A DNA stretch of 64,000 bases from Berberis thunbergii. Lineage: Eukaryota > Streptophyta > Magnoliopsida > Ranunculales > Berberidaceae. The stretch spans positions 124,001 to 188,000 of the forward strand of contig QNQO01001850.1 of NCBI GenBank assembly GCA_003290165.1, given 5' to 3'. The notes beneath the pieces were generated by a model that saw only the letters and a list, made by a program, of their open reading frames with translations, did not search any database and was not told the origin of the DNA. How positions within the stretch are numbered: position 1 is the stretch's first letter; each line of letters begins with the position of its first letter. This document shows, piece after piece, positions 11,091 to 64,000 of this stretch. The position numbers and the translations under genes are program-made.

Positions 11091-11117
11091 ATGGTTGCTG
11101 CAACTTGAATCAAGGAA

Positions 11118-12201: not shown

Positions 12202-12205
12202 TATT

Positions 12206-12414
12206 TGTTAGGCACAGAATCCAAACAACTCAAGCAAATTGGGAGAATACCTCAATATCATCATTATTATCATAACAGGCATATATGGCCTTACAAGAAG
12301 TAACTGAAAATAACCAACAACCCACGTAAAGCACTACTCTAGTGTGTGGTACATGATTGCAGGAAAAAGTCTATCTACATACCCTACAAACTAGGGAACA
12401 ACCAAACTCAAACA
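12206..12414 (-). repeat. 5' LTR of the minus-strand Copia element
   Basis: 209 bp with TG...CA ends, nearly identical to 7742-7950. Confidence 0.9.
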
Positions 12415-12419
12415 ACCCG

Positions 12420-19847: not shown

Positions 19848-19849
19848 AT

Positions 19850-19861
19850 TGGTATCAGAGC
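19850..19861 (+). other. Primer-binding site of Copia copy 2
   Basis: TGGTATCAGAGC, matching the 3' end of initiator tRNA-Met, two bases after the 5' LTR. Confidence 0.93.
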
Positions 19862-19973
19862 ACTAAGGGAAATTGATCTTGAATTGTTCTACTCAAGATT
19901 GTGAAGGTTCAAAAGTGCTAGGATTTGTTTGTGCACAAGTTGTTTGAAAAAAAAAAAACCGTAGTGAAGCTTC

Positions 19974-21329
19974 TTGTCTAGAAAGTCACAGGTTTTGTTT
20001 GCAATGGCATCCAAGGTGAGCAAGGCACATGTGGGGAAGTATGAAATCGAGAAATTTAATGTTAAAAACGATTTCGGATATTGGAGAATACAAATGAGAA
20101 ATTTGCTTATTTCTCAGAAATTACACAAGGCATTACTAGGGAAGGATAAAAAGGCTGAAACCATGTCAGATGATGAATGGGAAGAATTGGATTTGGAGGC
20201 GCGTGCTGCTATTTGCTTGTGTCTAGATAAAGACATAGTTTTTCTAGTTAATGAAGAGACTACGGCAGCTGATGTTTGGTTGAAGCTTGAGTCACAGTTT
20301 ATCACTAAGACATTATCAAACAGGTTATATTTGAAAACCCAATTGTACAGACTAGCAATGGATGAGGGCACTCCAATTGGTGATCATATCGCCAAGTTTA
20401 CACGGATTATCTCAAATTTGAGAGATGTGGATGTGAAGATTGAGGATGAAGACCAAGCAATTATATTGCTTTACTCCTTGCCACAGTCATATGAAAATCT
20501 TGTACAAACAATTTTGTTTGGGAAAGATGAACTTACATTTGATGAAACTACCGGTGCACTCTTGTCCAATGAAATTCGGAAGAAAACTTCATCAAATTGT
20601 AGTGGGAAAGATCAAGCTGAAGGGTTGGTTGTTAGAGGAAGGTCTCAAATGAAATCATCTTCAAAGAGTGGAAAATCTAGATCAAAGTCTAGAGGTCCAC
20701 AATGTCACAAATGTAGAGAGTGGGGGCATATTAGAAAAATTTGTCCAAATCAAGGTAAGAGTAATCATGATAATAGTTGGAAGGGCAAGAAAAAGCAAGA
20801 TAAGGGTGATACTAGTGAAGCAAGTTATGCATCTAGTACGGAAAAGGATGAAAAATGTTATTCAACTGCGGGTGAAAAAACAGAAATCTCTGGGAGATGG
20901 ATCTTTGACTCTGGGTGTTCTTACCATATGTGCCCAAACAGGGAGTGGTTCACTACCTATGAGCACATTGATGGTGGTACTATTTTGATGGGTAATGATT
21001 ACGCTTGCAAGACAGTTGGAATTGGAACAATGAGGATTAAGATGTATGATGGTGTTGTGAGAATCTTAACTGATGTGAGGCATGTCCCAGCCTTGAAAAA
21101 GAACCTTATCTCGCTTGGTGTTTTAGACTCCAATGGTTGTAAGTTTACAGCGGTAGGTGGAGTTTTAAAGGTTGTCCGTGGGTCTTTGGTTGTCATGAAA
21201 GGGATCAAACAAGGTAACTTGTACACCTTGATGGGTAACACGATAACAGGAAATGTGGCAGTGGGAACTTCTTCATCGGAAAGCACTAGGTTATGGCACA
21301 TGCGACTTGGGCATATGACAGAAAAATGA
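19974..21329 (+). pseudogene. Copia Gag-protease (copy 2), truncated by a stop
   Basis: 451 codons. The Met at 20004 (Met-Ala-Ser-Lys-Val) is the more natural start because the Gag_pre/UBN2 region follows directly. The UBN2-type Gag occupies roughly residues 20-220. The zinc knuckle CHKCREWGHIRKIC is near residue 243. The protease active site is in WIFDSGCSYHMC near residue 310, with Asp-Ser-Gly intact. The GAG-pre-integrase motif RLWHMRLGHM lies at the end. Translation stops at TGA 21327-21329, where copy 1 has an extra A and stays open. Gag and protease could therefore still be made, but not the rest. Confidence 0.9.
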
Positions 21330-24024: not shown

Positions 24025-24164
24025 TTGAGGGCCCTTTGGGGCGTTGCCCTTCGGGGCGGTTTCGTGAGGTGACAAAGCTATGGTTGAGTGTTGATCAGTT
24101 TATTATTTTGCCTTGTTTTGGCTCATTTTTTTCTTTAAAAAAAAAATTCGTTGAGGTGGAGAAT

Positions 24165-24682
24165 TGTGAAATAGGAAACATACCTGTTTTGTGAAACAGG
24201 AAACTATTTTCTGGAAACAGAAAACGTGTTTGAAACAGGAAACAAATTTCGAAAACAACAATTGTGAAAACTGAAAACTGTTTGGACTCCTGTTTGAAAC
24301 AGGAAACTGTTTGGACTTCTATTTGAAACATGAAACAGGAAACAATACACTATATATACTAGGAACTATAGCTGTTTTTTATATGTAGAAAAACTGTGAA
24401 GCACAGGGAATAGAGAAAGACAATTGCTGAAATTGTTTCATCTCTTGTTGAGAGATTGTGTGAGAATTGTCATCTTCTTGTACCTTGTTATTGAATATAG
24501 TGAAATCACCTCACCGTGGACGTAGGCAATTGCTGAACCACGTAAACCTTGTGTCTCTTGTGGTATGTTTTTAATTTTCTCTAATTTCTTTCATTGCTAG
24601 TTGCTCTATTTAATTGATTGGATCCTTGTGGTACTTGTGTACAATTGTTGGTGTCGACCCGCTTCCGCAATAAGGCGCAACA
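24165..24682 (+). repeat. 3' LTR of Copia copy 2
   Basis: 518 bp, TG...CA, preceded by the polypurine tract. It matches 19305-19847 apart from the missing ~25-bp GAAACAGG block and scattered substitutions. Confidence 0.92.
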
Positions 24683-24687
24683 ATATG

Positions 24688-25018
24688 GTATTATGTGGTG
24701 GCGCTACTGGAGTAAACTCTAACACACAGAGCGAGAGAACCATAGACACCTCCACCACCACCACCATCGATGGCGTAGTCTAACCTCCAATGTCGGATAG
24801 GTTCCGGTGAATTCACCGGAACACGGTTGAATTCCGGCAACTCTTTCAAACCCAACAAGTTTCTATTGCTTCATCAAGTTTCTATTTTTCTACTTTTTTT
24901 TTTTTGAAAATTCTTGAAGTTCTTTGAACACCAAAGTTGACAACTTTATGTTCCATTTTCCTTTGGATTCTTGAACATTGTTAACATTTTGTATGTATGG
25001 GATGATGGGTACATGCAG
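24688..25018 (+). other. Remainder of PILS pseudogene intron 1
   Basis: No gene was recognised. It contains a (CCA)n stretch near 24763 and short TTC/T runs, and ends in the acceptor ACATGCAG at 25018. Confidence 0.5.
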
Positions 25019-26492: not shown

Positions 26493-26841
26493 AGAATGTA
26501 TACATCCACACATCCCACAGGTAGCATTGATTGGATACTCGAAGAGTCTTGCAAATTTGCATACTTCAAAAATGAGATGTAGATGGCTAGCCCATCTTCT
26601 TGAGAGGACATTCAAATTTCCCAGCATAAAAGAGATGGAAGATGATGCACTCAAGTGGGAGAAGTTCTTGAAGCAATATACTGGCCCATACTATAGAAGA
26701 GCTTGTATTGGTATCCTTCAAATATGGTACAATGATCTTCTCTGGAAGGATATAGGATGCAATGCCAAAAGAAAGAAGGGATTTTTCGCAGAGTTGTTTG
26801 AACCTTATGGACCTATGGATTACAAAGACCTATCCCATTAG
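26493..26841 (+). pseudogene. C-terminal exon of an FMO1-like flavin-dependent monooxygenase
   Basis: An acceptor TTGTTGCAG at 26492 opens a 116-codon exon ending at TAG 26839-26841. The reading starts R-E-C-I-H-P and continues through [52 protein letters not shown] and the terminal [19 protein letters not shown]. This is the plant FMO1 family C-terminus, where the last exon has this shape. FMO1-type enzymes hydroxylate small amines such as pipecolate using FAD and NADPH. The FAD- and NADPH-binding N-terminal exons are absent upstream, where PILS exons lie instead. It is therefore a gene fragment, although this exon itself is undamaged. Confidence 0.8.
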
Positions 26842-27056
26842 CCTCTTTTAGTTGTTTACTGCTTCAACTGAAATAAATGTAGTATGATCGTTATTATTTA
26901 ATAGATTTTGTGACTCAATGTAATACATTACCTTATTACATTATTGTGCCTTGCTGTTCATGGAAATGTTCAAGTGTTTGGCACATTTAGGTTTTTATTT
27001 TCTAGAAATAAAACTTATAAAATGTTATAAAACATCATTTGATAGCATTTGATGAG
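26842..27056. other. Spacer after the FMO-like exon
   Basis: AT-rich. An AATAAATG motif at about 26872 could serve as a polyadenylation signal for the FMO-like exon. Nothing else was seen. Confidence 0.35.
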
Positions 27057-27451
27057 TGTTACAGGAAAAAAAAGCATTGAGAAACGCTATAATACAATAG
27101 CATTTGTTAAATGCTACGTGAGGGAAGACAATAGCGTTTCAGAAACTCTATTGGTAACTATAAAATAGCGTTTTTTAAGTGTTGTCATAAGCTAAACAAT
27201 ATCACTTTTTAAACGCTATTATATATTTAACCAAAGCATTTTTAAAACGTTATTACAAGATAAACAATAGTGTTTGAAAATGCTATAAATGGTCTACTTA
27301 CAATAGCGTTTCTAAAATGTTATAAATAACTCTGTATCTATTATAGCTCCGGCATACACAGCGTTTCAAAAATGTTATTGTAGGATAAAACGCTATGATA
27401 TCCTATAATAGCGTTTTTAAAACGCTATGAATAAGCATTTGTGGTGTAGTG
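27057..27451. mobile_element. Short CACTA-type element fragment with AGCGTTT palindromes
   Basis: The right end reads GTGGTGTAGTG (27441-27451), the complement of a CACTAC terminus. The body is an array of AATAGCGTTT..AAAACGCTAT units in both orientations, like the subterminal repeats of the CACTA at 13598 but with a different core. The left end (TGTTACAGGAAAA at 27057) is a degraded version of CACTACAGGAAAA. No matching 3-bp duplication was found. No ORF. Confidence 0.55.
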
Positions 27452-27818: not shown

Positions 27819-28233
27819 TGTCACAACTATCTTCTTGCCTAGCCAAGTGAGGTTGGCAAGTGTACATAATGTAGAATATTCTACATTGTTCTAAAGAGAG
27901 TTCTCTAGAACCTCCCATAAAGTTCCATAAGATTCTAGTCCTTAGATATTTCTAAGGAAGTGTGTAGAAGCTCAATATAAACCGTTAGATTAAAATGATC
28001 ACCACCGTCCATTGAGGAGGTGGAGTTGTATAAATAGGCTAAGGCCTCATTTGTTGTAATCACCTCAGAGAATTCAAGCAATACAAGTTCTAGTTCTCTT
28101 AAGCTCTCTTGTGTGTTCTTAGCTTGCTTAGTTTTCCAAAGTCTAAGTAAGTCTTTTGTGGGCAAGGCTGACTAGCTTTCTTTGATAACTCGGGGCAAAG
28201 CTTGCTAGTGTCGCACGGGAAGTACCCGTGACA
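27819..28233 (+). repeat. 5' LTR of the Gypsy chromovirus
   Basis: 415 bp with TGTCAC/GTGACA ends. A TATAAATA box lies near 28030, placing the transcript start near 28060. Confidence 0.92.
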
Positions 28234-28235
28234 GT

Positions 28236-28248
28236 TGGTATCAGAGCC
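28236..28248 (+). other. Primer-binding site of the Gypsy chromovirus
   Basis: TGGTATCAGAGCC, complementary to the 3' end of initiator tRNA-Met, two bases after the 5' LTR. Confidence 0.92.
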
Positions 28249-28287
28249 AGGTTTGGCAAGGTTGGTGAAATCATTCTACACAAGAGA

Positions 28288-29811
28288 ATGTCGTCAGAGG
28301 TCAACAACCCAGCAATTGGCAACACTGACAAAGGTGGGAAAGTCCGCAAGGACAAGTCGAAGGACATGATCGCTACGATGGACGAAAGGTTGGCAAAGTT
28401 GTGTGCCACCATGTCTGACTTGAGGGAGAAAGTCGAAGACATGGACCAACGCATCGAGGGGCAAGCGTCCAAAGGGGAGAGCCATGAGCTCCGGGAAGAG
28501 ATGCAAGGAGCCTTGAACACAGTAGTGGACATGGTGTCCAAGAAGATCGAGTCCCTTGAAGCCCAAATTGTTTCCAAAGATGCAGAGATGTGTGCTTACA
28601 AGGAAAGAGTTGAGAAGCTAGAAACTCAACTCAGTGTGTGTATGGTTGTGGTAGCCAATGGTGGGACTACACCAGGGACAATCACCCACAGAGTCGAAGC
28701 TCCCAAACCTAAGGCCTATGGTGGGGCAAGGAGTGCAAGGGAGATCGACAACTTCTTGTGGAACATGGAACGCTACTTTGATGCAGTCGGCATAATAGAT
28801 GAAGCATCAAAGGTACATAGTGTCTCCTTATATTTAAATGATGTTGCTACAGTTTGGTGGAGCAGAAGGTCCGAAGATGTCAAGAAAGGATTGTGCACCA
28901 TCGACACTTGGGAAGAATTCACGAAGGAACTCAAGAGACAATTCTACCCGGAGGATGCCGAAAACGAAGCTAGGGCCAAGCTTCGTCACCTTCAACATAA
29001 GGAAGGCCACATAAGGGAGTATGTGAAGGAGTTCTCGGAGTTGCTCTTGGAGATTCCTGACATGGGAGAAAATGATGTTTTGTTTAGCTTCCTTGATGGC
29101 CTAACGGGTTGGGCCAAGTTGGAATTGAAGAGGCGAGGTGTGCAAGACCTTGCAACGGCTATGACTGCGGCTGAATCCTTGATTGAGTTCAAGAGAAAGG
29201 ACTCATCCAAGGGGCAAGGGAAAAGGCCGAGTAATGATGGCAAAGGTGGGGGAGACAAAGAGAAGTCCTCCAAGGAACACAAATACTCCAAAGACAGGGG
29301 AAAAGAAAAAAGAGATGGATCACCCAAGAAGATATCTTGCTTCTTATGTAATGGACCCCATCGGGCATTTGAGTGTCCAAACCGGGGGAAACTTTTCGCG
29401 CTTGTCATGGAGGAAGAAGCAAAGGACGAAAAGAGGATCGCCTCAATGAATCTCCTAAGTGCCATTCAAGCTAATGTCGAAGAACAACCACGTGGAAGGA
29501 TGTACATGGAAACCGAGATCGGGGACAAGACTTTGAAAGCCATGGTGGATACCAGAGCCGACACAGTCTACATGGCCAAAGACCTTGCTGAAGAAATTGG
29601 CCTATCATATACGAAGGAGAAAGGTTATATTAAGGGAGTCAATGCTAAAAGTCTCCCAATTGAAGGAATAGCTCGTGGTGAAGTCGACATAACTATTGCC
29701 CCAATTGATGATCACAAATTCTATTTGGGTATAGATTTTTTGAACATGGTGAAGGCTTTTTTGGTACCATGTGCATCATGGAGAAGGGACAACCTTGTGT
29801 TGTGCCCGTAG
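28288..29811 (+). pseudogene. Gypsy Gag and protease, frame lost at the C-terminus
   Basis: I take the Met at 28288 (Met-Ser-Ser-Glu-Val), after the leader, as the start; the frame is open from 28228. There is a coiled-coil-like region over residues 30-125, a retrotransposon Gag domain over about 160-290 (YLNDVATVWWSRR, TWEEFTKELKRQFYPE), a lysine-rich linker, then a shortened zinc knuckle CFLCNGPHRAFEC (C-x2-C-x3-H-x4-C) near 350. The aspartic protease follows near 415-430, but its active site reads Asp-Thr-Arg-Ala instead of Asp-Thr-Gly-Ala, so it should be inactive. An indel at the T-run near 29756 throws the frame before the RT. Confidence 0.9.
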
Positions 29812-31175
29812 TAAGGGAGATAAGTAAGAAGAGAATGGTGTCCGCTCTCCAACTTTCTAAAGGAGTAAAAAGGAATGAACCTACTTACTTGGCTACCCTC
29901 AAGGAAGATGAAGGTCCCATGGATGGAGAGGTGAATGCACCTAAGGTCGTCCAAGATGTTCTCAAGGAGTACAAGGACGTTATGCCTGCCGAATTGCCTA
30001 AGAAGCTTCCACCAAGGAGAGAGGTGGATCATGCTATTGAGTTGGAAGTTGGAGCAAAGCCACCCGCATTTGCTCCTTGTCGTATGGCACCTCCTGAGCT
30101 CGAGGAGTTAAGAAGACAATTGAAGGATTTACTAGATGTTGGTTATATCCGACCCTCCAAAGCTCCATATGATGCACCCGTTTTATTTCAAAAGAAACAT
30201 GATGGATCCCTACGGCTATGTATCGACTATCGGGCACTCAACAAGGTCACTATCAAGAACAAGTACCCGATTCCTCTTATTGCGGATCTCTTTGATCAAC
30301 TTTGTAATGCAAGGTACAATACCAAGTTTGATTTGCGCTCGAGATATTATCAAATCTGCATAGCCGAAGGAGATGAACCAAAGACGACATGTGTTACAAG
30401 GTACGGGTCTTACGAGTTCTTAGTCATGCCATTTAGTTTAACTAATGCGCCGACCACATTTTGCACTCTAATGAATAAGGTACTAGCTCCTTACCTTGAT
30501 CGGTTCGTAGTTGTGTACCTTGATGACATTGTGATCTATAGTAAGACATCGGAGGAACATGTGGATCACTTGAGGCAAGTGTTCCAAACCTTGAAGGAGA
30601 ACGAGCCCTATGTCAAAAAGATGAAGTGCTCATTTGCCCAAGAGGAGGTGACATTCTTGGGTCATATCATTGGCAAAGGCAAACTTTGTATGGATAAGTC
30701 CAAGGTACAAGCCATCCAAGAATGGGAACTACCGACCAAAGTCACCGAGTTAAAATATTTCCTTGGCTTGGTGAACTACTACAGGAGGTTTATCAAAGGC
30801 TACTCTTCCATAGCCGCTCCATTGACGGACTTGCTCAAGAATGGACGAAGTTGGGATTGGAGTTCAAAATGCCAACAAGCTTTCGAAGGATTGAAGAAGG
30901 AAATTATGGAAGAACCGGTGTTGGCACTTCCCAACCATTATATGTCTTTTGAGGTACACACGGATGCTTCCGACTTTGCTATTGGTGGGATATTGATGCA
31001 AGAAGGGCATCCTATTGCCTTTGAAAGTAGGAAGCTCAATGATACTGAGAGGCAGTACACAGTACAAGAGAAGGAAATGACGGCGGTTGTGCATTGCCTA
31101 CGAACATGGCGACATTACTTGTTTGGGAGCAAATTTGTGGTCAAGACCGACAATGTTGCCACTAGCTACTTCTAG
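29769..31175 (+). pseudogene. Gypsy reverse transcriptase-RNase H
   Basis: The RT spans about residues 110-300, with LCIDYRALNK, the catalytic YLDDIVIYS (both Asp present) and FLGHIIGKG. FDLRSRYYQI has Arg where the family has Gly. RNase H starts at VHTDASDFAIGGIL, with Glu in QEKEMTAVV and the third acidic residue in VKTDN. The frame ends at TAG 31173-31175, an in-frame nonsense change, because the same frame resumes immediately with the QARWQDFLAEF linker to integrase. Confidence 0.92.
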
Positions 31176-32339
31176 ACACAAAAGAAGCTCACACCAAAAC
31201 AAGCTAGGTGGCAAGATTTCTTGGCAGAGTTCGATTACACTTTAGAGTACAAGCCTGGCAAAGCTAATCTTGTTGCGGATGCTTTGAGTAGAAAAGGAGA
31301 ACTTGCTGACATAAGTCAACCTCAAAGCAACTTGAAGGGACGCATAAAGGAAGGATTGACACATGATTCCATGGCTCAAACCATCATAGCTCTTGTCAAA
31401 GATGGGAAGACAAGACGGTTTTGGGTGGAGAACGACTTGATATACTCTAAGGGGAGGCGAATATATTTTTCACCTCATGACAACCTAAGGAGGGAAGTTT
31501 TAAAAGAATGCCATGATAGCAAGTGGGCAGGACATCCAGGTATACATCGGACTCTTGCTCTTATAGAAGATTCTTATTACTGGCCACATATGAGGGATGA
31601 TATCGAAGCATATGTGAAGACTTGTCTTGTATGCCAACAAGACAAAGTGGAGCAACAATCACCTGCCGACTTACTTGAACCCCTCCCCATCCCAGAGAGA
31701 CCTTGGGAGAGTGTTTCCTTAGATTTCATAGTTGGGTTGCCTGCATCAGATGGTTGCAATTGGATACTTGTGGTCATGGACAGATTTTCGAAGTATGTCA
31801 CCTTCATTCCCACACCCAAGGAGTGCACAGCCGAGCAAGCCGCACATTTATTCCTCAAACATGTGATAAAGTATTGGGGTGTGCCCAAATCTATCATCAG
31901 TGATCGGGATACTCGGTTCACGGGGAAATTTTGGACTGAGTTGTTCAAGTTATTGGGTACCGACCTTAATTTCTCTACTAGCTTTCATCCTCAAACGGAT
32001 GGTCAAACGGAAAGGATGAATGCCTTGCTGGAGTTATATCTTAGGCACTATGTGAGGGCCAACCAACGAGATTGGGCTAAGTTGCTAGATGTTGCCCAAT
32101 TCTCTTTGAACTTGCAGAAGAGTGAAACGACAGGTCGTAGCCCATTTGAGATTGTCATGGGACAACAACCTATGACCCCGAGTTCTATTGCCACTGGCTA
32201 CACTGGAGTGAGTCCATCAGCCTATAAGTTTGCCAAAGGATGGAATGATCAAGCTGATGAGGCTCAAGCTTACCTGGAAAAGGCATTCAAGAGGATGAAG
32301 AAGTGGGCCGACAAGAAGAGACGGTCTCGAGAGTTCTAG
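31176..32339 (+). pseudogene. Gypsy integrase core
   Basis: Same frame as the RT. The zinc-binding HHCC module reads HPGIHRTLALI...CLVCQQDK (about 31530-31640). The DDE core has SLDFIVGLP (31720), ISDRDTRFTGKFW (31895) and the Glu of TDGQTERMN (31998), so all three catalytic residues are present. It is interrupted by TAG at 32337-32339, just before the C-terminal GPY/F-type module. Confidence 0.9.
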
Positions 32340-32738
32340 GTTGGAGACCTTGTGCTTGTCAAGATGCATGCTCATGCCAGACTTTCTGGACTACATCGTG
32401 GCCTTATCAGGAGATATGAGGGTCCTTTCCCCATAGTCAAGAAAGTGGGAAAGCAAGCCTACAAGGTCAAGTTGCTGCCGAGGATCAAGTTTCATTCTGT
32501 CTTCCATGTGAGCCAACTGAAACCGTATAAGGAAGATCGGGATGATCCAAGCAGAGGAGTTTCACAAAGAGCACCAATGGGCATGAGAATCCAACATAAC
32601 AAGGAGCCAGAGATAATCTTGTCAGATCGTGTGGTGCGTCATTCTAACCAACCTCCCACACATGAGCTACTCGTCAAGTGGAAAAGATTGCCAGAAAGTG
32701 AAGCTAGTTGGGAGCCAATCCAACATTTGTGGCAATAA
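32340..32738 (+). pseudogene. Gypsy integrase C-terminus with chromodomain
   Basis: Continues the integrase frame after the stop. The GPFPIVKKVGKQAYKV segment is the integrase C-terminal fold, followed by FHVSQLKPY. The final 45 residues (EIILSDRVVRHS then ELLVKWKRLPESEASWEP) form a chromodomain with the W-K-x-L-P-x-x-x-x-x-W-E pattern. In chromoviruses this domain targets integration to particular chromatin. It ends at TAA 32736-32738, 54 bases before the polypurine tract. Confidence 0.92.
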
Positions 32739-32804
32739 GGAGCAAATCAAAGCGTACGAGGATTTGAAGGCAACGAGGACGTCGCCTGATTAGGCGGGGG
32801 AGAA

Positions 32805-33235
32805 TGTCACAACTATCTTCTTGCCTAGCCAAGTAAGGTTGGCAAGTGTACATAATGTAGAGTATTCCACATTGTTCTAAAGAGAGTTCTCTAGAACCTC
32901 CCATAAAGTTCCATAAGATTCTAGTCCTTAGATATTTCTAAGGAAGTGTGTAGAAGCTCAATATAGACCGTTAGATTAAAATGATCACCACCGTCCATTG
33001 AGGAGGTGAAGTTGTATAAATAGGCTAAGGCCTCATTTGTTGTAATCACCTCAGAGAATTCAAGCAATACAAGTTCTAGTTCTCTTAAGCTCTCTTGTGT
33101 ATTCTTAGCTTGCTTAGTTTTCCAAAGTCTAAGTAAGTCTTTTGTGGGGCAAGACTGACTAGCTTTCTTTGATAACTCGGGGCAAAGCTTGCTAGTGCCG
33201 CACGGGAAGTACTTGTGAAAAGAAAGCCCGTGACA
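32805..33235 (+). repeat. 3' LTR of the Gypsy chromovirus
   Basis: 431 bp, paired with 27819-28233. Confidence 0.92.
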
Positions 33236-52320: not shown

Positions 52321-52325
52321 CAAAT

Positions 52326-53010
52326 CACTACACCAAAAACCCCCATTAGCAACGGTTCTGTACCGTGGGCGTAACCCATTGCCACGGCTAAGAGCCGTTG
52401 GCTATAGAGGCGTCGCGAAATTTGTTGCAACGGCTATCAACCGTTGCTAAACATTGTAGCAACGGTTTTATGTTTGAGTAGGGGGTGGTATTTTCAGCAT
52501 TTAGCCACGGTTATAAACCGTTGCAATAAGTATAGAAACGGTTCTTTGCCGTGGCAACAATAGCCACGGTTATAAGCCGTGATAAAGTGTGGATATTCAC
52601 AACGGTTTTAAACCGTGTCTAACATGGTAGCAACGGGTATAAGCCGTGGCTAACTGTTTCCACGGTTTTAAACCGTGGCTAAATAGTGAGAAATCAACTG
52701 TAGCTAACAAGTTAGCAACGGTTTTAAGCTGTGGCTAAACAGTGAGAAATCAACTGTAGCTAACAAGTTAGCAACGGTTTTAAGCCGTGGCTAAACAGTA
52801 AAAAATAAACTGTAGCTAACAAGGTAGCAACGGTGTTAAGCCGTGGCTAACCATGGCCACGGTTTTAAACCGTGGCTAAACAGTGAGAAATTAACTGTAG
52901 CTAACAAGGTAGCAACGGTTTTTAGCCGTTGGCAGGTAAAACAAAATTCAAAAAAAAAATCTGGTTTTGTTGCAACGGTTTCAAACCGTTGCAAATTAAT
53001 ATAATCGAAA
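52326..53010. repeat. CACTA terminus and subterminal repeat array
   Basis: After CACTACACCAAAAA, the units TAGCAACGGTTTTAAGCCGTGGCTAA and variants repeat about 20 times in both orientations, each forming a short palindrome around AACGG/CCGTT. One ~62-bp unit (GTGAGAAATCAACTGTAGCTAACAAG.TAGCAACGG) is repeated in tandem at least four times (52685-52925). Confidence 0.88.
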
Positions 53011-54010
53011 AAAAAATTAAATTTTTTTTTTGCTGCTGCAGCAAAATCACAGCCGTCGCACCTGTAAAATCAGTCCGTACTATGGTATGTGTCATGCCTC
53101 CGACACGAATAAGATTCCACAAACTATATGCTAAATAAATACAAAATCAACCGTAAAAAGGAACTTGTCAAGTTTTGACGCCAAACAAAAACATGTAAAC
53201 AAATAGCATTAATGTACAATAACAGGATTAACCTGAACAAATGGAACCTTGTTATATCATGTTTCGCTCGCATCTAAAACAAAAGAATTTCTCTATGTTT
53301 TTTCCAACAATACAAATCCACCTAGTTATATAATGTAAGAAAATACATTGATGCCCTTAGGAACAGGCCCCATTTCTTTCGGTAGTTGCTTGTTCAATAT
53401 ACTGAAAATGATGAGAATGCAGCACCTGGTAGTTGCTTGTATATGGCACCGGTGATGGTTGATACAACAATCCTTCTAATGACCCCACCGCAAATCCTAT
53501 TATGCTCCAACAAAGTAACTTGTGTATTGGAGTAGATCCCTAAGGTTTTGAACTCTCGAGAAGAAGACACTTCAGTTTATTTGTATTTTCTCTAATGATA
53601 TCTGATTAACAAAAAGGGTAAGAGAGATACTGATTATGTTCTATTTTAGTTTTAAGTTGGTGAAGAAAGATAAGTAAAAGAACAGAGAGGATATTAAAGC
53701 AGTGAAAGGATACTGCAGTAATGTTAGGAAATACACACACACATCAATTACTGATTTCTTCCTTCATAAAGAATTAAAAAAACCTTTGCTAATTCTAACA
53801 TTCCTAATCACTTACTAAATCTATCCCTTAAAAAGATTAAGATCACCTAAATGACATACATATTTTTTTTTAAATATCAAGATACAAGTAGTCCTTGATT
53901 CAGTACTTTTCCATTTTTATATAAGGACGACTTCTAACTATTGGCAACAAAAATAACGTGACAGCATGAGAAGCATCTACTAGGCTATAATTTGTGAACG
54001 TGAGACATAC
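53011..54010. other. Non-coding part of the Pack-CACTA element
   Basis: A minus-strand open frame of about 60 codons (around 53570-53400) has no recognised family. The next GNAT exon expected below 54011 was not found. The rest is AT-rich. Confidence 0.4.
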
Positions 54011-57000
54011 TGTGACAAAGCAAAAACATTTCAATGAGTTCCCATCACGACCGCTAAACCGACGTACTAAATCTTTGTGTTCCTGCAGAAGATAAACAAG
54101 AAAATATAGTAACATCAGGAACAAAAGGCACATGAAGAAATCAACTATGCAATTGAACAACATTTCAAAAATATAAGGAGTAAAACAAGAGGGCTTCTAG
54201 AAACTTTGGACTAGCACAATTGTATTGACCATATGAGAAATGTGTAGGTGCAAGTTTGTTGTTGCTATGTTCATCTTTTTGTGTGATTTAAAACTATGAG
54301 GGTGAAACAACCAAAGATGCGGGCATATGCCACTTGGTAATTATTAAATCTGACGATCTCTAGTAACCAACTGATGATCTCTAATAACCAACATATCCAC
54401 ATCTACAAGAAAGTGAAGACCTTTTCTCTTTTTGTGTGTGTGAAAGGCACCCATAACTTTCCCTTTTATGTTAAACATAAAAGTGATTTACTTAGATCCA
54501 GTCCTATCTATAATACTAATATTTTCTGTTATCTTTACATTGGTGGTGAAGATGGTAGTTGATCGCAAAAGAATTTGTTTAAGACCATGAAAGTTGGTAG
54601 GATTGTGCCCCCGTACAGTCCTCCAAGGAAACAAAAATGTTAGGGGCTGACATGTTTTGATGAATCTCTGCAGCAATCTTTGGAAATCCCTGCAATCTGG
54701 AATCAATTCAAGCAAGAAGTTTGATCGACATCAATAGAGAAATAGCTGGTAAACTGGAAGATCACACAAGCATCTGCTGAAACATGATTTGTATTGATGT
54801 TCTGATATTGTAATTACAAACTACACTCTGACATACAGAGATACATTGTAATATGAAAGAAAATAGGAAGGTTGTTCGAGAAGCCTGGGTCTCCCTAATG
54901 AGCAATGGCTCAGTTTTACATTAGCTGAATCAATGAATGACCCTTTCTTATTGCCAATCTCTATTTATACTGACTTCACAGACTAACAGAGCATTTATTT
55001 ACATCTTAACAGAACAATCCACTTTCTAACAGACCTTCTAACAGAACATCCTAACTGAATTTACAGGAACTCTTCTAACTCCTTCTCTGACAGACATTCT
55101 GTTACTGCAACTGCATTCTTCACCATATGACAGTTTAGCCTTTGCATCCTTTGCATCCTATATTAAAAACAACATGAACTCAGCATTACAAGAACTCAAT
55201 CAGCATGCATTCTGTTTCTTCCGTCTAGTATACGTGAACCTTATCGGGGGCCTATCAAAAAACTTAACAGACTCACTACCGGCTAAATGTACCAATTTTA
55301 AATGGCAACTTGGCACCTCTATAGCACTGCCACATTCTGACCTCTATACTTGTATGGTGTGTAACCTATACTCTAACCTGTAGTCATCAAAGAGAGGTTC
55401 AATATCATATACAATCTAGTCCGACCCGCCTCTTCGAAACTAGGTATTAAGAAGACCCAATCCAAACACAAGTAAACACATCAAAAAGTCCTTGAAGAAT
55501 CACTCCCTTTCCAGATCATTTCATTCTAAACTTTCCCTGGCCTGCCTCTCTTTTAACAGTACTTGAAACTGATAACCAATTTTTGCTTGATCCTTGATAC
55601 TAGATCTCTTTTCCTCACTTCTCCACTACCAATAGGGCAATAAGTTTTGTCCTTGTTATGTTAAACACGATAGTCATTTACTTGCAGGATATCCTATCTT
55701 CTTATATCTCTATTTGTTTCAGCTACCTTTACATTAGTGGTGAAAAATCACAGCAATTAAAATCTCATTCCATTTATTTGAGAATTGATGCAACATGCAA
55801 GGTTGTGCTCCTACTCTATAGACATGCAACAACTTAATAGAATCAATATCGGCTAAACGCCACAATCTCAAAGGTGATTCAAGACATAAATTACGACCAC
55901 ACTGACCTTTGTACTTCTGTAACATGCAACCTAGTGGGGAAAAAGTTATGAAGAATAAGGCAACGCACAAAGAGAGACAATATGGTCCTTAAAGAGCTTT
56001 TATGGACCAAAATACTTCCAATCTTGGAAATCTATTGTAAAAAATGCACACACTTCCACAACCTGATCATTCCCACAATAGATAGATCTAGGGAGGATCC
56101 AATCCAACACCCTTGCTTCAAATGTGAATTAAGACTTCTATGGAAAAAAAAAATAGTACATACTGATTGATCATGTTGCTAAAACCCTAAAAGAGAATGT
56201 GCAAGCTTAATGAAGATCACTTTCACTAATCCTTTGTTGATAAAGCTTTCATTGCTTTGCCTAAAAAAATCCTTGTGAACAGTGCTTCAAGATGCCAACA
56301 AATGAAAAAGTACTTGAGGATGTTTGTTATAGTACGCTCATTGGCCCACTCCTTTTGATTTTACCAAAACAAAGGTTGTTTCAATACCTCTAGTAAATCA
56401 CAAATCATAGAGTCCTCGTGTTCAATTACAAGACATGCACTTTGAAATAGAGAAGGCATTCAAATAAATACCCATGGAAGAAAATATACTTGTGCTTGAA
56501 ATATTGTATTGTGCAATGGAATGGAAACTTTACCTCATCAGCATAACTCTTTTTGAAAAGTTCAACATGCCTGGACAGTGCAAAATTGTTATATCAAGGA
56601 ACCATATCGTAAAAATGGAAGTAAAAAAAAAGAAGAAAAGAAATATGATGGTTACTGAGCTCAAACATTCAACGAGAAATTTGTGAAAATAGTGAAAACT
56701 AACCTCATATAAGTCAAGGATTCGTAATGAGCTTCTGCCCTCAACCATGCTGCCACCTGCAATAAAAAATGAAAAAAAAACATAAATAGATAGAGAAATA
56801 AGTCAACAAATGCCTTGACCACAAAATATAATGTCTTATTATGGTGTGTTCTGAAGGGGAGTGTGAGAAGAGGTATTGCCTTACATTTCATTGTGCCACC
56901 CTAATAGAGGCATTGGCATTAAAAGGAGCATGCTTATCTTAAAAATCCTGCCAATGAGAAGGCAAGAAAGAGAACTAAACTTACCCAATACTCTGCATTC

Positions 57001-57171
57001 AACTCAGCTTCTCGAGCAACATATTGACCAAAGGCCCGTTTTGGCATTAAGGGATCAGGGTCTAGTTGGTTGCCACTGGTGGGAGCAGGTGATAGCTGAG
57101 CGCTTCTTGAGAAATTGTTGTAATGGTCTTCAATAGCTTTCCAGTTTTTGTATGACACAGGAAAGGACTCC
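54011..57171 (-). pseudogene. Captured GNAT-family N-acetyltransferase fragment (4 exons)
   Basis: Exons with consensus splice sites and matching phases are 57171-56985 (62 codons, SYKNWKAIEDHYNNF to QYVAREAELNAEYW), 56756-56704 (AAWLRAEAHYESLTYM), 56570-56534 (HVELFKKSYADE) and 54082-54011 (EHKDLVRRFSGRDGNSLKCF). Together they read about 116 residues without a stop. They match the segment before the acetyl-CoA-binding core of plant plastid GNAT proteins (pattern A-R-E-A-x(3)-E-Y-W-x-A-A-W-L-R-A-E). The transit peptide exon and the catalytic GNAT core are both missing, so no enzyme can result. Which GNAT paralogue is uncertain. Confidence 0.72.
54083..56533. other. Large GNAT-fragment intron region with internal repeats
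   Basis: Two degraded related segments share ATGTTAAACA.GA.AGT.ATTTACTT and TTTACATT.GTGGTGAA (about 54470-54620 and 55655-55810). A CTAACAGA-rich stretch lies at 54980-55110. No recognised exon. Confidence 0.4.
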
Positions 57172-57436
57172 CTGCACCAATTGCATCATAACAATTAGGA
57201 CTAAGGACTGTGAGACATGATTATTAGAATCAGGAAGTCAAAGGCAGCATGCTAAGACACCCTATGGGCTGAAGACACCCTATGTGCTTTATTGAAATGT
57301 CAACTTAAAATAAAGTGAAAACACATGAAGAGAAAACACCCCCTCTTGAAATGACCGTCAATCAGACATACCTTTTTGTTAAGTAGAAAAGTTCCTTTTA
57401 CTGCCAGACAATGCCTTCGCCAAGGCGTTCACTTCA

Positions 57437-57660
57437 TCAACCTTCTGTGCAGCACATGCAAGCCATGATTTGATAGGATTGCTTTACTGCAGATGCCGGT
57501 TGAATTCTCTGATGCTGCACTTGTTGTCTCAGCTGTTGCTGTTGTTGCTGCTGCTGCAATTGATGTTGCAACTGGGCCCGTTGCATTGGTGGCAAAGATT
57601 GCATGAAATGCTGCGGCTGTTGATGTCGTTGTGTCATTTGCAGATTACACATGGGTTAGA
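57437..57660 (-). pseudogene. Captured SEUSS-like (SLK) co-regulator fragment
   Basis: The minus strand reads a QQRHQQ..MQSLPPMQRAQLQHQL start, eight glutamines, LRQQVQHQRIQPASAVK, and then, after a small indel, V-x-x-R-R-L-M. This is the Gln-rich segment leading into the LIM-binding domain of SEUSS/SLK adaptor proteins (family pattern LRQQL..MQPASAVKRPY..GVCARRLMQ). SLK proteins work with LEUNIG-type co-repressors. The fragment is frame-shifted right at the domain boundary and then lost. Confidence 0.68.
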
Positions 57661-57833
57661 TGGCCACCACATGTAATTGAAGAGAACAAAAGAAAAAAAA
57701 ACATTTCAAATATCACTCTGCAAGTCAATATAGATACATAAAGAATTCACAATATAAACGGATGCCGATAAACAAAATAAACATGAATATATGAGACTTA
57801 CAAGGTGCTTAATACGTCTGGGTGTAGGTTATA

Positions 57834-57919
57834 CTCCCTTGGCACTGCTGTTCTTTGAAGTTCCAGGGAGAACTTTCATACTGCTGCTTCAGTTGGCATT
57901 GCCACGTGTGTCATCGTGA
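57834..57919. repeat. 86-bp direct repeat, copy 1
   Basis: From CTCCCTTGGCACTGCTG to GTGTGTCATCGTGA. It matches 60294-60379 with two changes (57851 and 57894). It brackets the 2.37-kb block that holds the exportin-T, VPS33 and LRR kinase fragments. Confidence 0.92.
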
Positions 57920-58948
57920 CTAAGACTCCTCCTCCATTGTGTCCTTCTTGGATGCACATTATCTGTAGCATGAGAGGGAGAGATAATGAAATTGAATCTC
58001 TGAAACTGAAACACCCACAAACTACATGAGAATATCAAATGATGGCATAGCATGGCATGGCATGGCAGAGAGAATGTCTCTCCCCCTTCCCTGCATTCTG
58101 TAGATAGGTTCATGATTGTGTACTTAAAAGATGACCAAGTGTGAATCCTTTTGTTTGAGTTGGGGTACAACAACCATTGACAGCCATGCAGACAATTTAG
58201 ATGAAGTCATTAAGGTACATTAATGGACATTTTGGATAGAATTGCACTAGACATTTTACGATTGTGTACTATACATGTTTTTGATCATTAATGGACATGT
58301 AGCTTTGAAGTGTAAGACAGGTAGAGAAGCAGAAGGGCCCCGAACACCAATATTTTAATCATTGTGTTTCCGACTAGAAAACCGGAAATTAAATTCAAGA
58401 AAGGAAAATCTGTAACCTAAATTGAAGAAGAGGAAGTGGAAAAACAACACTTGACTTGATGGAAAGGAATCGAAGAAGAAGAAGAGGAGCTGTTGTGCTA
58501 TTGCTTTGCTCATGAAAGAAGAAAATAAGTGGGATTGATTATTCTCATAAATTTGACTACATTTTCTCTATTACTTTCATTTCTTTTTTATACCATACAT
58601 GTCAAAGTCGAGGCATCTCTCTCAGTTCGTCTTCGTTTATTTTTCTCCGTTTGAGAATTCCACAAGGCTTGCTTCCCTATTTTACAAGACTAGTTGATAT
58701 TGATTGGGATTGTGATAGATTGTCTCACTTCTTATTAAGATTTCTGACTCTATTCAAAAACAATATGTACCATATATATGTCAAAGTCAAGTCGTCTCTT
58801 AGTTGTTTTCATTTATTTGTCTATGCTTCAGAATTCCACATGGCATACTTCAAATGCAGCACTTTGTCCAGTGTTAGAATGGTTTAATGTTATATTAACA
58901 ATGCATAATTAAAAAAAAAGTTGATCGCAAGATAGTCAGAAATCATAC
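57920..58948. other. Pack-CACTA interior, no recognised exon
   Basis: GCATG-type short repeats lie at 58046-58066 and GAAGAAGAA at 58470-58485. A pair of related segments (CATGTCAAAGTCGAGGCATCTC...GAATTCCACAAGGC at 58598-58668 and its relative at 58776-58845) was also seen. No gene was recognised. Confidence 0.45.
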
Positions 58949-59047
58949 TGTGTTTGCATCATGGAATTCGAAAGATCTGTCAAGAACGCTGTACAAACAA
59001 CAGTTTATCGCAAATGTCTCAAGTACAAATTTCTGAAAACCAGGTAC
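58949..59047 (-). pseudogene. Captured exportin-T (PAUSED-type) exon
   Basis: A 33-codon exon lies between an acceptor TTCTGTCAG and a donor GTATGA. It reads VPGFQKFVLETFAINCCLYS then VLDRSFEFHDANT. It resembles a C-terminal exon of plant exportin-T (PSD), which exports tRNA from the nucleus (family pattern IPGF..F..E.FA.NCCL.SVLDKSFEF.DANT). It is open and undamaged, but neighbouring exons are absent. Confidence 0.62.
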
Positions 59048-59462
59048 CTGACAGAATTCCATCAAATTGATAAGTGGGATAATTACTTAAAGCAACACAA
59101 TCACAGTACAAAAATTAACAAAACAGACTTACCTTTTCTTCACCATGAAGTGTGCCACACCAGTCTTTGATGAGAAATTGAATATACAGAATAGCCAAAC
59201 TTGAGAAATAGAAGAGTAAAATACTCTAGAGACCTCATCTCAATGAAATCATGTCATACAAAACTGCACCAATGCTGCATCCACAAGTATGCTGAATATA
59301 ACATATACCGACAGCATAATAGGAGATTAAAAAAAAAAAAAAAAAAACCAAAACTCACTCTACCTAGGAGCCCAGGTTGCAAATTCATGAACCCAGGTTG
59401 CAACTCCATCTTACATAATACTATGTTACCAAAAGTGCAGCTAGAAGTATGATTCAACTCAC

Positions 59463-59718
59463 ATGTCATAACTCTCCCCCTCTACAACCAGGTGCTCCAT
59501 GTCAAGTTGTCCAAGGAATGAAGGCTTTGATGTAAATGTAGATAAGTGCTGAGCAAGATTTATGTGCCTCTGTGACAAATTAAGCAGAAGGTGCAGCATA
59601 AGATTCATGAGGCTACTTGAACCAAATTAACGGATACATCAGAGGACAGACTTACACTGATTTTTGGTAATGAATTGAGCTTCCTTACAAAGTCTTTCAA
59701 TTCAGAGACAGTTTGATT
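59463..59718 (-). pseudogene. Captured VPS33 fragment (2 exons)
   Basis: The exons are 59718-59656 (NQTVSELKDFVRKLNSLPKI-S, 21 codons, donor GTAAGT) and 59569-59463 (RHINLAQHLSTFTSKPSFLG and QLDMEHLVVEGESYD, donor GTGAGT), separated by an 86-bp intron with acceptor TTGTCACAG. The joined reading matches the middle of VPS33, the Sec1/Munc18 subunit of the HOPS/CORVET tethering complexes at the vacuole. Both exons are open and correctly phased. All other exons are absent. Confidence 0.78.
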
Positions 59719-59932
59719 CTGTATACATGACATGCACATCAGTTACATGTTCATCCAAAAACCATTCTATCACAACCCAAAAGCACTTCAAATACCAGAC
59801 AAATTGTTGAAACTCAAGTCTCTGGCAAAATGAAAATGAGATTCATCAAAGCAAAGACTAGCAAGGATTTGTTTACATAAGGACCATTGTAGATCAAATA
59901 TCATAAAACAATTACAGACCAAATTAACTTAC

Positions 59933-60293
59933 AGTCTATTTATAGTTTTGATGCTTTCTCCAATAAATTGAGGGATGGGACCATTAATTGAGCAGTTTTT
60001 CAGAAGCCTGTCCAAATAAATGTAACTTAGTCATATAAACCTATAAAGTCATAAGTTTATACAGGCGTACAGTAAAATATTCAACAAATCAACTCACAAG
60101 TCTGTCACTTTTTTCAAAGTTTGTAAGTTGGGGAAACTCATACTTGGTCCTTGCAGGTCAGTTATCCTCCTGAAAGGATCACATAACACAGATGAACAAA
60201 ACCGAAGTAACTTTATGAATTATAAAAGCTTTGAAGGTAGTCTTACAGCTGAGTTATGTTTGTCAAGCGGGAGAATGTAAAAGGAATGGGGCC
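59933..60293 (-). pseudogene. Captured LRR receptor-like kinase fragment (3 LRR exons)
   Basis: The exons are 60293-60247 (GPIPFTFSRLTNITQ), 60169-60098 (RITDLQGPSMSFPNLQTLKK, then VTD) and 60007-59933 (LLKNCSINGPIPQFIGESIK, then TINR). They are linked by phase-2 introns with GTAAGA, GTGAGT and GTAAGT donors. Phase-2 introns between leucine-rich repeats are typical. The sequence fits the malectin-LRR kinase subfamily (pattern L-R-I-S-D-L-x-G-x-S-M-S-F-P, then L-R-N-C-x-I-x-G-x-I-P). The fragment starts exactly at the 86-bp repeat. Signal peptide, malectin and kinase parts are absent. Confidence 0.75.
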
Positions 60294-60379
60294 CTCCCTT
60301 GGCACTGCTGCTCTTTGAAGTTCCAGGGAGAACTTTCATACTGCTGCTTCAGTCGGCATTGCCACGTGTGTCATCGTGA
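60294..60379. repeat. 86-bp direct repeat, copy 2
   Basis: Matches 57834-57919 at 84 of 86 positions. It joins the LRR fragment directly on its left side. Confidence 0.92.
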
Positions 60380-60518
60380 ACCCGCTGCGGCCAGAAACAG
60401 CACGTACAACAATAAACATTAAAAGAAAGACATCATAATAAAAAAGTAAACATAAATAAACATTAAAAAGTAAATATAGTCAGAAAATTCACCATTAGAC
60501 TCTTGGTTTTTGTAACTA

Positions 60519-62180
60519 TCAATCATCAAGTTCCACATGAGTTCTACACCATATGAAGAAATCACCAACGTCCAAATCCCCCATCTTGTCTCCTTTTGGA
60601 TCACTTTTGTAAAGTTTCACCCCAGTCTTGTATTTGAAGCATAAGGAAAGTCTGATCTCTGTTGCAAGGTTCAATGATCCATGACAAGCGCAAGAGAATT
60701 GATGGATAGGATCTACAACCTCTAATGCTATCGCAATGACATCCCTTTCCCAATCACAAACTTTGTATCTCCTTGACACTGAAGGAACAGGATTGCTTGG
60801 AGAAGGAAACCTCGCAACACCTTGAGAAGATGATGGTAATGGAGATGGTGGTAATGGAGATGGAGGTAATGAAGATGGTGGTAATGGAGATGGAGGTAAT
60901 GGATTATCTGGTTGCCTTGTCGATTGTGCACCGAATGACGGTGTATCTTCAGTTCTTTGAACAACTCCTTGTATTCCCTCACTTGTTGATGGTCTTACAT
61001 AAGTTCCACTTTCAAGTCTCTCTCGTATCCATCTAACATTTTCTTCCAATCTTTCATATTTTTCTTCCCTTTTTTTGGCTTCCAATGTTTTTTTCCAATA
61101 GCAATGAACGAGCGGGATGTGCAGCATCATACTTCCTTTTAGAGACAGTGGTTCCAACACAACGAGTACGTCCCCTCGCTTCTTGGCCAAACACTTGGCT
61201 TAGAGGATCATCATCAATAGAGAGGTCAATGTTACCTTGAGTTGAAGATTCTTGCAATGCAGCTTTTTTGCTTTAACTTGTTCCTTCAAAAGAATGAAAA
61301 AATAAAATAAATCAGGACACAAATAATATTCAAACAACTACAAAGTAAATTAAGAATTGGGTATAAAAGACATCATTGGGCACATACCATATATTGTTCA
61401 GAACCATGAGTAGGTTTTCCATCCTTTCCCGTGTGACAAGCAATCCATATGTCAGTACGTGTGACTGGTTCTCCATCAGGGTTCTTCTCAACCTATATAC
61501 TTGAAAGATTAGTCTCAGCCTATAAAGTTAAATGGTACATAATATTGTACTAGTAGCTAGAAACTTAATTACCATTTTGTACTCTACTTCTGCAGCACTT
61601 TTTTGGCCACCCCCCCATACATACTTTGAAGCCTTTTTGTTTTTTGCATTTTGGTCTCTAATTGCCTTCGCTTCAGGGGTGCTCTCATGGCGAACAAACT
61701 CCTTCCAATCCTCCTCTCTTACACCATTTGGAACATGCTTCTCTTGTTCCTCAATGGTAGGATATTTATCCAAATAATTCTTCCTAAGATGTGCCTTGAA
61801 CCTTCTATAATATTCAGGCATTTTCAAATGCACACTCTTTTTCACATAATTTGGAATGTCATATTCACGCTGCAAATAAGCCATTGAGATATAAGTTGAA
61901 AATAAAATAAGACATTATGAAAATCAATGATGTAAAATCTCACCTTGAGGCCATTCCACACATCCTCTTTGTAGTTGTCAGTAACATGGTGCCACCCATT
62001 GAATTTGATGGGCACAAGGGTTTCAACAAGCTTTCCAATGTTTTTATTGAAATTTCTAGCACCAAGTCCAACTGCTAAACCGTGGAGGTTGAACTGTATG
62101 GTCTGTTTAACTTCAATGTCATCATTTGTAGATCTGGTGACATCAATGGTGGAGAGATCATTGCCGCGAGTACTATCCAT
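60519..62180 (-). pseudogene. CACTA TNPA-like protein (Transposase_24 / Ptta family)
   Basis: Exons by splice signals are 62180-61944 (MDSTRGND start to DNYKEDVWNGLK), 61869-61573 (REYDIPNYVKK to SAAEVEYKM), 61492-61388 (VEKNPDGEPVTRTDIWIACH to EQYM) and about 61283-60519. The second exon has VREEDWKEFVRHESTPEAK, the third TDIWIACHTGKDG and the fourth DPLSQVFGQEARGRTR, all standard blocks of this plant CACTA protein, which binds the subterminal repeats. A coiled-coil-like ERLEENVRWIRERL follows. One frameshift lies near 61090 at a T-run and another near 61270. A Pro-rich PSPLPPS minisatellite sits at 60835-60905. The first three exons are open and well phased. Confidence 0.78.
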
Positions 62181-62508
62181 CTCTATCAATGAAGACAGTT
62201 ATAGATATTAATCATTATCAAACAAAAAGAAATAAAAATCAACTATATACACCACAATTATAGATAATTTCATTCCACAACATATCACCACAAATAGTTT
62301 TTTTATAAAACATTGGAAAGCCAATCTGAATACATAGCTACAAAGCTTCCCTTTCCCAACTCAAAAGTCTAAATAAGAAACAAAGACAAAATATTTGGTC
62401 TCAACCAAAGAGGATGACTAAAATAGCATTAGAAATGCATCAAAAAATATTGTAGCATAGTCAATTAAAATTCCAGTAAGCTCTTCAGGTTGGGTTGTCT
62501 TTCAAGAT

Positions 62509-62862
62509 GCTTTGATACACAGTGGGAATTTCATTTTATCGACATTAGTGTTCAAGCCTCTTTGAGTATGTAGAACTACATGCCACCCGTCATTTGATTG
62601 ATCTTTCGAATAAAATACTCCACTTGCTTCTTGAGCTAAATGAATGGATCCTCTTCCACTTTCTTTTGTCTTTTAGCTTCGACAAGTTACATTCTCATGG
62701 TTCAAATTGGTCCACCTTATATGCATTTTCTTATCTTCCACTTTGACCCAATCACAATAGAAGACAGTTTCTTTGAAATCGATGTAGTCTAGCACCAGTA
62801 TGTCTCTAACAACTCCATACCATTTGACTAGTGGTCCTTTGGGCCTCTTATTTTCTTACTAG
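62509..62862 (-). pseudogene. CACTA TNP2-associated DUF4216 domain
   Basis: One frame reads GPLVKWYGVVRDILVLDYID, FKETVFYCDWV and later GVFYSKDQSNDGWHVVLHTQ with a single TAA between. This is the DUF4216 module that follows the transposase in plant CACTA TNP2 proteins (Y-Y-G-x-L/V-x-D-I-x-x-L-D-Y, C-D-W-V, V-F-Y-x-x-D). It is closely preceded (63060-62863) by weaker matching sequence. Confidence 0.75.
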
Positions 62863-63061
62863 CAACAAAATGAGCAATGGCATCCATGGGAGACACCACT
62901 ATCTTGTGTCACACCAACATTCAGTCCAAAAGAACTTGTCCAATGTGAAACCATTTACACATATTTTGGAATATCGAGTTCCAAAAATTTTGGACCATGG
63001 CTACCTCCAAAGTGTGGTATTTGGTTTCCCCAGGCCTTCTCCAACTACATTGTAAAACAAA

Positions 63062-63564
63062 TCATCTTAGAACTGAAATCTGAAAATAAAAAAAATTATA
63101 TATGTATATATATATGAATAAATACACATTATAATATACCTCATCACACAACCAAGGAATAAAATCTGTAGCTTTCTCAACATTTTTCCTTGACCCTTTT
63201 TTTTTACTTTGTGTAGCCAACTCCATGCAATATTCATTGTATTTTCTGCACAAGTTACCATATTATCATAATTCTATATTTCTAGTTATAAAAAAAGACT
63301 AAAATATTATATATCTTACTCTTCCCAATCACTCGAATCAGCAAGTGCATTGAAAACCCATCTTCGAGCTTGTTTAAATTGTACATTATTTAGCATATAG
63401 TTTTTTCCTTTATCCAATGGCTTTTCATCGGCATACTCATCATCTACATCAAGCCACTCCTCTTGACTGTGTTTGTGAGTTCCGAACCGTGGCTTTCTCA
63501 TATACTCCATGCAGTATGTAACAGATTCATCTACAAGGTATGATTCTGCTATTGATCCTTCCAT
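63062..63564 (-). pseudogene. CACTA TNP2 C-terminal (DUF4218 end) fragment
   Basis: 63564-63316 begins M-E-G-S-I-A-E-S-Y-L-V-D-E, the end of DUF4218 in TNP2 proteins (P-E-G-S-I-A-E-G-Y-x-x-E-E). 63253-63062 reads CRKYNEYCMELATQSKKKG and later FIPWLCDEV, the segment before DUF4216. The catalytic transposase region that should precede this is not present. Confidence 0.68.
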
Positions 63565-63632
63565 GTATCTGAAATTTTTATATAGTCTTTGTATCGTTTC
63601 ATTAACCTATCAATCATAAATAAAAGGATAAA

Positions 63633-63995
63633 TTAGTATATAATATAATAAGATAACGTAATGACGTGCACTAAAATAAGATAACGTGATAACGTGATGA
63701 CGTGCAATTCAATAATGGTGGACAACATGGTCTTATCCTTAGGACACCCTTTGTACAAAGGCACAGTCGCTTTTTCCTTATACTTTTGATACTTCTTGTT
63801 CATAACTGTCTCAGGTTCACGAGAAAGTTCCGGACCACCTTCTGGATTACCGCCAAAACATTCTTCGACGGTGTCATTCAAGTCATTTATCCCATCATCA
63901 GCATCCACAGTTTGCATGTTGAGGAATACATCATCAACTAGCTCGCTCATCCTAGGATATTCACATACATCATCAAGTACAGCCACTTCTGTCAT
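63633..63995 (-). pseudogene. CACTA TNP2 N-terminal fragment
   Basis: A 120-codon piece contains an acidic N-terminal stretch (VDADDGINDLND) and then KEKATVPLYKGCPKDKTMLS, matching the TNP2 start (A-x-x-P-L-Y-x-G-C-x-K-x-x-x-L-S). It breaks off just after this block. The next recognisable downstream domain is the DUF4218 end at 63564, so several hundred residues including the transposase catalytic core are deleted. Confidence 0.65.
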
Positions 63996-64000
63996 GGTAC

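Follow-up and report, generated by a model that had tools for sequence, protein, structure and literature searches.

The stretch analysed here, referred to as the window, comprises 64,000 nucleotides of Berberis thunbergii DNA (positions 124001-188000 of contig C1850, QNQO01001850.1, in assembly G000 of 2.24 Gb and 11,732 contigs) and has a plant-like gene content; a plasmid search, run to check for the wrong kingdom, gave no match. Its right-hand part is very probably occupied by one non-autonomous gene-capturing CACTA transposon, which spans 52326-70884, comes from a very abundant family and would have gained its cargo stepwise by fusion of elements. The contig reads on for 9.6 kb past the window to its end (L009), and coordinates in this extension continue from 64000. 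The left (3') terminus begins at 52326 with an exact match to CACTACACCAAAAA; the terminal motif CACTACACCAAAAACCC (52326-52342, plus strand, placed by motif match) follows the trinucleotide AAT at 52323-52325. A subterminal palindromic repeat array, delimited by palindrome and repeat scan, covers 52346-52991, and 14 of the window's 19 palindromes of the form ACGG-N5-7-CCGT fall within 52326-53000, which bears out an initial annotation that had described a CACTA terminus with subterminal palindromes. That annotation had also placed the right terminus outside the window, and TTTTTGGTGTAGTG indeed lies at 70876-70884, 2.7 kb before the contig stops; the trinucleotide that follows is CTA and not the AAT it had predicted. 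From terminus to terminus the element measures 18,559 bp. Terminal inverted repeats (TIRs) at 52326 and 70884, subterminal repeat arrays at both ends and En/Spm-type transposase domains place it in the CACTA superfamily. No inner terminus was seen beside the gene fragments or the transposase, either as GTAGTG or as a second CACTACACCAAAAA with at most two mismatches in 52326-64000, in agreement with the annotation. Its epithet "giant" has to be dropped, as 18.6 kb lies inside the 10-25 kb range given for grapevine CACTAs in passages of PMC2528002.

Eleven other terminus pairs (E1-E11), sampled as ends standing close together among the terminus places listed, served for comparison. The transposase remnants lie on the minus strand and consist of a TNPA-type block with a Transposase_24 remnant (60516-62314, 97% to E9), remnants of DUF4216 and DUF4218 that stop codons interrupt (62502-63606) and the start of the transposase gene (63633-64000), where the Transposase-associated domain (63973-64197) runs on into the extension. 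This last domain matched strongly (PF13963, E 2.2e-11, above the Pfam cut-off), and the matches to Transposase_24 (PF03004, 1.1e-4) and DUF4218 (PF13960, 2.6e-5) within 60.5-64 kb and to DUF4216 (PF13952, E 0.015) all fell below their cut-offs. Transposase_21 had no match between the Transposase-associated domain and DUF4218, its expected place, so that the catalytic part of the transposase appears to have been deleted. Nor was it matched among the sense frames scanned in ten other elements, and amplification therefore needs a transposase supplied in trans.

Between the 3' end and the TNPA block lies a bay of captured DNA (53469-60515, minus strand), whose left edge is set by E1, E7 and E10 and whose right edge by E9 and E10. 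The 3' core outside it (52326-53468) is common to other family members, the alignments of E1, E7 and E10 all stopping at 53468; a reading of this core as a gene fragment was discarded for that reason. At 54-60 kb the bay holds minus-strand exon pieces that are bounded by splice sites and keep their introns. The rightmost, at 59794-60293, belong to a leucine-rich repeat (LRR) receptor kinase (best PDB E 1.6e-6, with splice reading). To their left is a Sec1-family fragment of two exons (59718-59656 and 59569-59462), which matched Pfam PF00995 at 3.5e-5, below the Pfam cut-off, and had no match in PDB; we take it to be VPS33. A methionine synthase (MetE) exon piece at 57382-57482 corresponds to residues 344-374 of PDB 1u1h (E 6.4e-4 across 31 residues). 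Searches of the databases gave no credible match for three further pieces, which by our reading are presumably a GNAT-like fragment (54011-57170; exons 57170-56985, 56756-56704, 56573-56534 and 54085-54011, introns kept), a SEUSS-like Q-rich fragment (57479-57655, from the splice reading) and an exportin-T-like exon with an altered splice donor (58946-59052, likewise). Frames across the captured pieces contain stops. An 86-bp unit occurs twice on the minus strand, at 57834-57919 and, fused directly to the LRR exon, at 60294-60379, according to repeat comparison and, for the second copy, splice reading; the copies are 97.7% identical. A 620-bp insertion at 54638-55257, with TG..CA ends and AAAAA flanks, is missing from the sister element E4 and is probably a solo long terminal repeat (LTR) acquired by the element once its copies had diverged.

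In the right half of the element, a shortened subterminal array of the right-end type lies at 65551-65798. It is 75% identical to 70430-70701 and 89% like the 5' region of E1, halting 184 bp inside the E1 terminus, and is here called the inner 5' scar. Just interior to this shortened end a perfect 78-bp tandem duplication was observed (L009:1491-1643). A nucleoside-transporter fragment adjoins the scar on the minus strand (about 65815-66196; PF01733 5.3e-10 for exon pieces joined over a frameshift), followed rightward by PnsB1 exons at 66295-67350 on the plus strand, opposite to the transposase (PDB E 1.5e-78), and then by the complete right end. Altogether the element appears to have captured eight host genes, five supported by databases and three named by our reading, with PnsB1 alone in the opposite orientation.

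The initial annotation thus recognised correctly the minus-strand spliced exon pieces and the transposase remnants on the same strand. Exon pieces lie at the places that it stated, and its names hold for the LRR receptor kinase and, at the level of the Sec1 family, for VPS33, while those of the GNAT, SEUSS-like and exportin-T pieces are without a credible match. Its count was too low, as MetE had been missed and the nucleoside transporter and PnsB1 lie beyond the window, and its statement that the fragments are co-oriented applies to all but PnsB1.

Several points weigh against a single element formed by fusion. The flanking trinucleotides of this copy differ (AAT on the left, CTA on the right), and the 1-kb left flank has an uninterrupted, 97%-identical counterpart (L051) that goes on with GGCCAC, unlike the right flank. 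The two flanks therefore come from different sites, and this copy is rearranged, recombined or mis-joined. The inner scar could also stem from a nested insertion instead of a fusion, and one nucleoside-transporter frame taken alone gave no Pfam match. In the sample, 3-bp target-site duplications (TSDs) match in 10 of the 11 other terminus pairs, and the ten elements with a matching TSD are only 9.8-15.1 kb long.

Such lengths, the mismatched TSD with its unrelated flanks and the right-type cluster at 65551-65798 would all suit a 13.5-kb CACTA that ends at this shortened cluster (65.55-65.8 kb), the end at 70884 then belonging to another element. We consider this improbable, because this cargo and the 66375-70884 segment are likewise united in the sister E4, a 13,255-bp element on contig C1 with the TSD ATT/ATT. 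E4 has the same left end, cargo, TNPA block and right segment, and aligns over 52326-54637 (94%), 55258-57257 (99%), 57255-57532 (97%), 59228-62404 (97%) and 66375-70884 (96%); it is without 57533-59227 and 62405-66374, and bears an 892-bp insert at 57257. A place on C3, known from two stretches alone, has the cargo (99%) 7.6 kb apart from a 5' end that matches 68888-70884 (96%), and the inner scar recurs in L045 on C2770, together with about 590 bp beyond it that include the transporter segment, at 99%. An arrangement ending at the inner cluster would thus describe at most the ancestor. A hybrid that never transposed had been considered as the cause of the TSD mismatch and is insufficient, being overruled by E4.

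Alternatively, two near-identical copies could have been joined in this contig by the assembly. The many copies at 97-99% identity, the flanks from different sites and the contig end 2.7 kb past the right terminus make such a local chimera conceivable, and we regard it as possible if rather unlikely; it would account for the TSD mismatch of this copy alone and not for the element, whose internal architecture recurs on other contigs. Faulty assembly at this locus does not account for the inner scar in particular, since L045 repeats it on another contig. Based on E4, the C3 place and L045, the unit is a real, mobile transposon, and the mismatch concerns this copy only. The single gene-capturing element proposed by the initial annotation is accordingly upheld by a TSD-matched sister in which the cargo occurs together with this right end.

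The family to which the element belongs is very large. With up to one mismatch allowed, the 17-base terminus was found genome-wide 5120 times forward and 4962 times reverse, about 10,000 matches in 2.24 Gb; its reversed control gave 9 and 14. A 1601-bp cargo probe, spanning the GNAT-like, MetE, SEUSS-like and 86-bp junctions, yielded 61 matches from the 40 candidates scored out of 1532 at first look. Among those scored, most of the probe was found at 97-99% identity at its own locus and at 19 further places (L031-L049), two of which share one contig, and as some contigs may be alternative haplotypes the independent loci could be fewer; other matches scored were partial or interrupted cargo copies. 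The unit is mobile and amplified.

As modelled for Pack-CACTA elements, stepwise capture through fusion of neighbouring insertions is the best supported explanation of this architecture. In that tandem-fusion model, as set out in passages of PMC8903248 and of the review PMC13317346, an internal TIR is deleted and the outer ends mobilise the DNA between them. An inner right end devoid of its TIR, followed by host DNA and then by a complete right end, is the signature of such a fusion. In repeated rounds of DNA gain, two family members would have inserted near each other, the TIR of the facing internal end would have been lost, and the outer ends would then have moved as a single element carrying the intervening DNA. 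The fused unit would have been amplified by transposase in trans, and internal deletions would have come afterwards. No internal element end was seen in the 3' bay (53469-60515), so the route by which it was filled is less clear than that of the right segment. As a multi-copy case in which the fusion scar is still visible, the element would allow the tandem-fusion model of gene capture to be read from sequence.

The captured exons could be spliced into chimeric RNAs, and nearly all splice sites read as canonical, except for the donor of the exportin-T-like exon. Capture for function, as chimeric proteins or regulatory RNA, would agree with this and with a 125-bp invariant window at the MetE piece, and nevertheless seems very improbable to us: the frames contain stops, and exon diversity among copies is not significantly below that of the rest. 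In 20 copies, diversity was 0.033 in exons and 0.047 elsewhere (circular-shift P 0.305, not significant), a comparison that is blurred as some copies are probably broken before 55.95 kb or after 57.93 kb; variation is very high outside these two positions, which probably reflects such breaks. Variable sites in the largest GNAT-like exon were distributed 5/8/11 over the codon positions. No selection on the cargo is detectable among copies, and it looks like a passenger. The invariant window (57357-57481) has zero variable sites in the 20 copies, and other 100-bp windows in 56.0-57.9 kb have about 2-15.

The cargo of other family members was examined in ten elements (E1-E3 and E5-E11), E4 being left out as the sister. 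When 158 open frames on both strands were first scanned with Pfam, many host families appeared, which by eye seemed to share one strand. For a strand test, open frames of at least 72 codons, filtered for low complexity, were split by strand relative to the transposase, the direction of which was set from end type and cross-alignment. The 122 sense frames held 13 host families at E <=1e-4 (GDSL lipase, GH79, HSP70, DOG1, FKBP, RdRP, carboxypeptidase S10, Methyltransf_29, pyrophosphatase, myosin head, LSD1 zinc finger, IP5P propeller and xanthine/uracil permease) plus two transposase families, whereas the 100 antisense frames matched three families, at best with 0.004, and no credible host gene. 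The ratio of 13:0 has a two-sided P of 2.4e-4 under equal odds and independence, which is not the P of a fresh test, as the bias was noticed and then tested on the same ten elements. One of the 13, FKBP, was contributed by E11, a 4.8-kb terminus pair with the unmatched flanks ACC and GAA and an FKBP-type isomerase fragment at L029:3599-4054; without it the count is 12:0. An element-wise Pfam check confirmed a host fragment in seven of the ten (E1, E3, E5, E6, E7, E8 and E11); in the frames checked it was unconfirmed for E2 (no match) and E9 (NAD_binding_10, 0.06), and E10 was outside this check. In the elements where TNPA and confirmed cargo could both be placed (E5, E6 and E7), the cargo occupies the interval from TNPA to the 3' end, as does most of that in the 52326-70884 element.

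Two cases speak against the strand bias, namely PnsB1, which is antisense in the 52326-70884 element, and an antisense E8 frame (L024:2938-3225) that presumably resembles a myosin coiled coil and gave no myosin match in Pfam. Perhaps, and this is offered as a tentative view, the family acts as a strand-selective gene shuffler that retains host fragments almost solely in transposase sense and mostly in the bay from TNPA to the 3' end. Inside the element's transcription unit sense pieces would be spliceable or read through, and antisense pieces would be selected against or not captured, so that thousands of elements would hold differing sense cargoes. If so, they would form a library of spliceable exon combinations across the genome, and if the 13:0 bias holds family-wide, it could be tested whether the retention of host fragments is decided by transposon transcription. 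Searches of open-access papers turned up no account of captured fragments being biased towards sense, either for CACTA elements or for Helitrons, and none stands in passages of PMC3288121 on maize Helitrons; the bias may be new.

Gene-capturing CACTAs are already established, and this element adds a member rather than a kind; the comparisons that follow draw on passages of the papers cited. Tgm-Express1 at the soybean wp locus (PMC1947982) likewise encloses, between CACTA ends, fragments with exons and introns from five host genes unrelated to one another. It is 5.7 kb long and sits in one gene intron, whereas the Berberis element has 18.6 kb, eight genes (three named by our reading), transposase remnants and many copies. 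In Tpn1 of Ipomoea (PMC5105172), for which chimeric transcripts are reported, internal sequence is similarly swapped for captured host genic DNA. There 339 non-autonomous copies are catalogued, compared with about 10,000 terminus matches in the Berberis family, and the Berberis cargo, unlike that of Tpn1, adjoins a recognisable TNPA block. Pack-CACTA and other Pack-TYPE elements (PMC8903248) share the capture of coding DNA, in many cases from more than one locus, and their tandem-fusion model fits the inner scar. As Pack-TYPE elements are defined without transposase similarity, the match to Pack-CACTA drawn by the initial annotation stands for the host-coding fragments between the TIRs and fails on the transposase remnants, which are kept, and the element is not a strict Pack-CACTA. 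Cactavine elements of grapevine (PMC2528002) are CACTAs of 10-25 kb with a captured fragment downstream of the transposase, and differ in that their PPR fragment is opposite in orientation. Jozin of Chenopodium (PMC8978399) also combines the Transposase-associated domain, Transposase_24, DUF4216 and DUF4218 with captured gene fragments, which lie 5' of the transposase and not, as in the Berberis element, mostly 3'.

Elsewhere in the window, a further CACTA-like end is found at 27438-27451, whose palindromic subterminal repeat is a different one. Pairing 6829 with 27451 as the ends of a single element was rejected, since the flanks are ATT and TAT. Just inside the end at 27438-27451 lies a coding stretch (26500-26840), which we take to read like the end of a flavin monooxygenase, and the feature at 26500-27451 is perhaps from a second gene-capturing family. 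A probable LTR retrotransposon with gag-pol-like long frames occupies 27819-33218, its repeats (27819-28231 and 32805-33218) being 97.3% identical. Two probable copia-like elements lie at 7742-12418 and 19305-24691, with end repeats 97.2% and 92.4% identical, and positions 1-3129 are 90.7% identical to 21250-24499.

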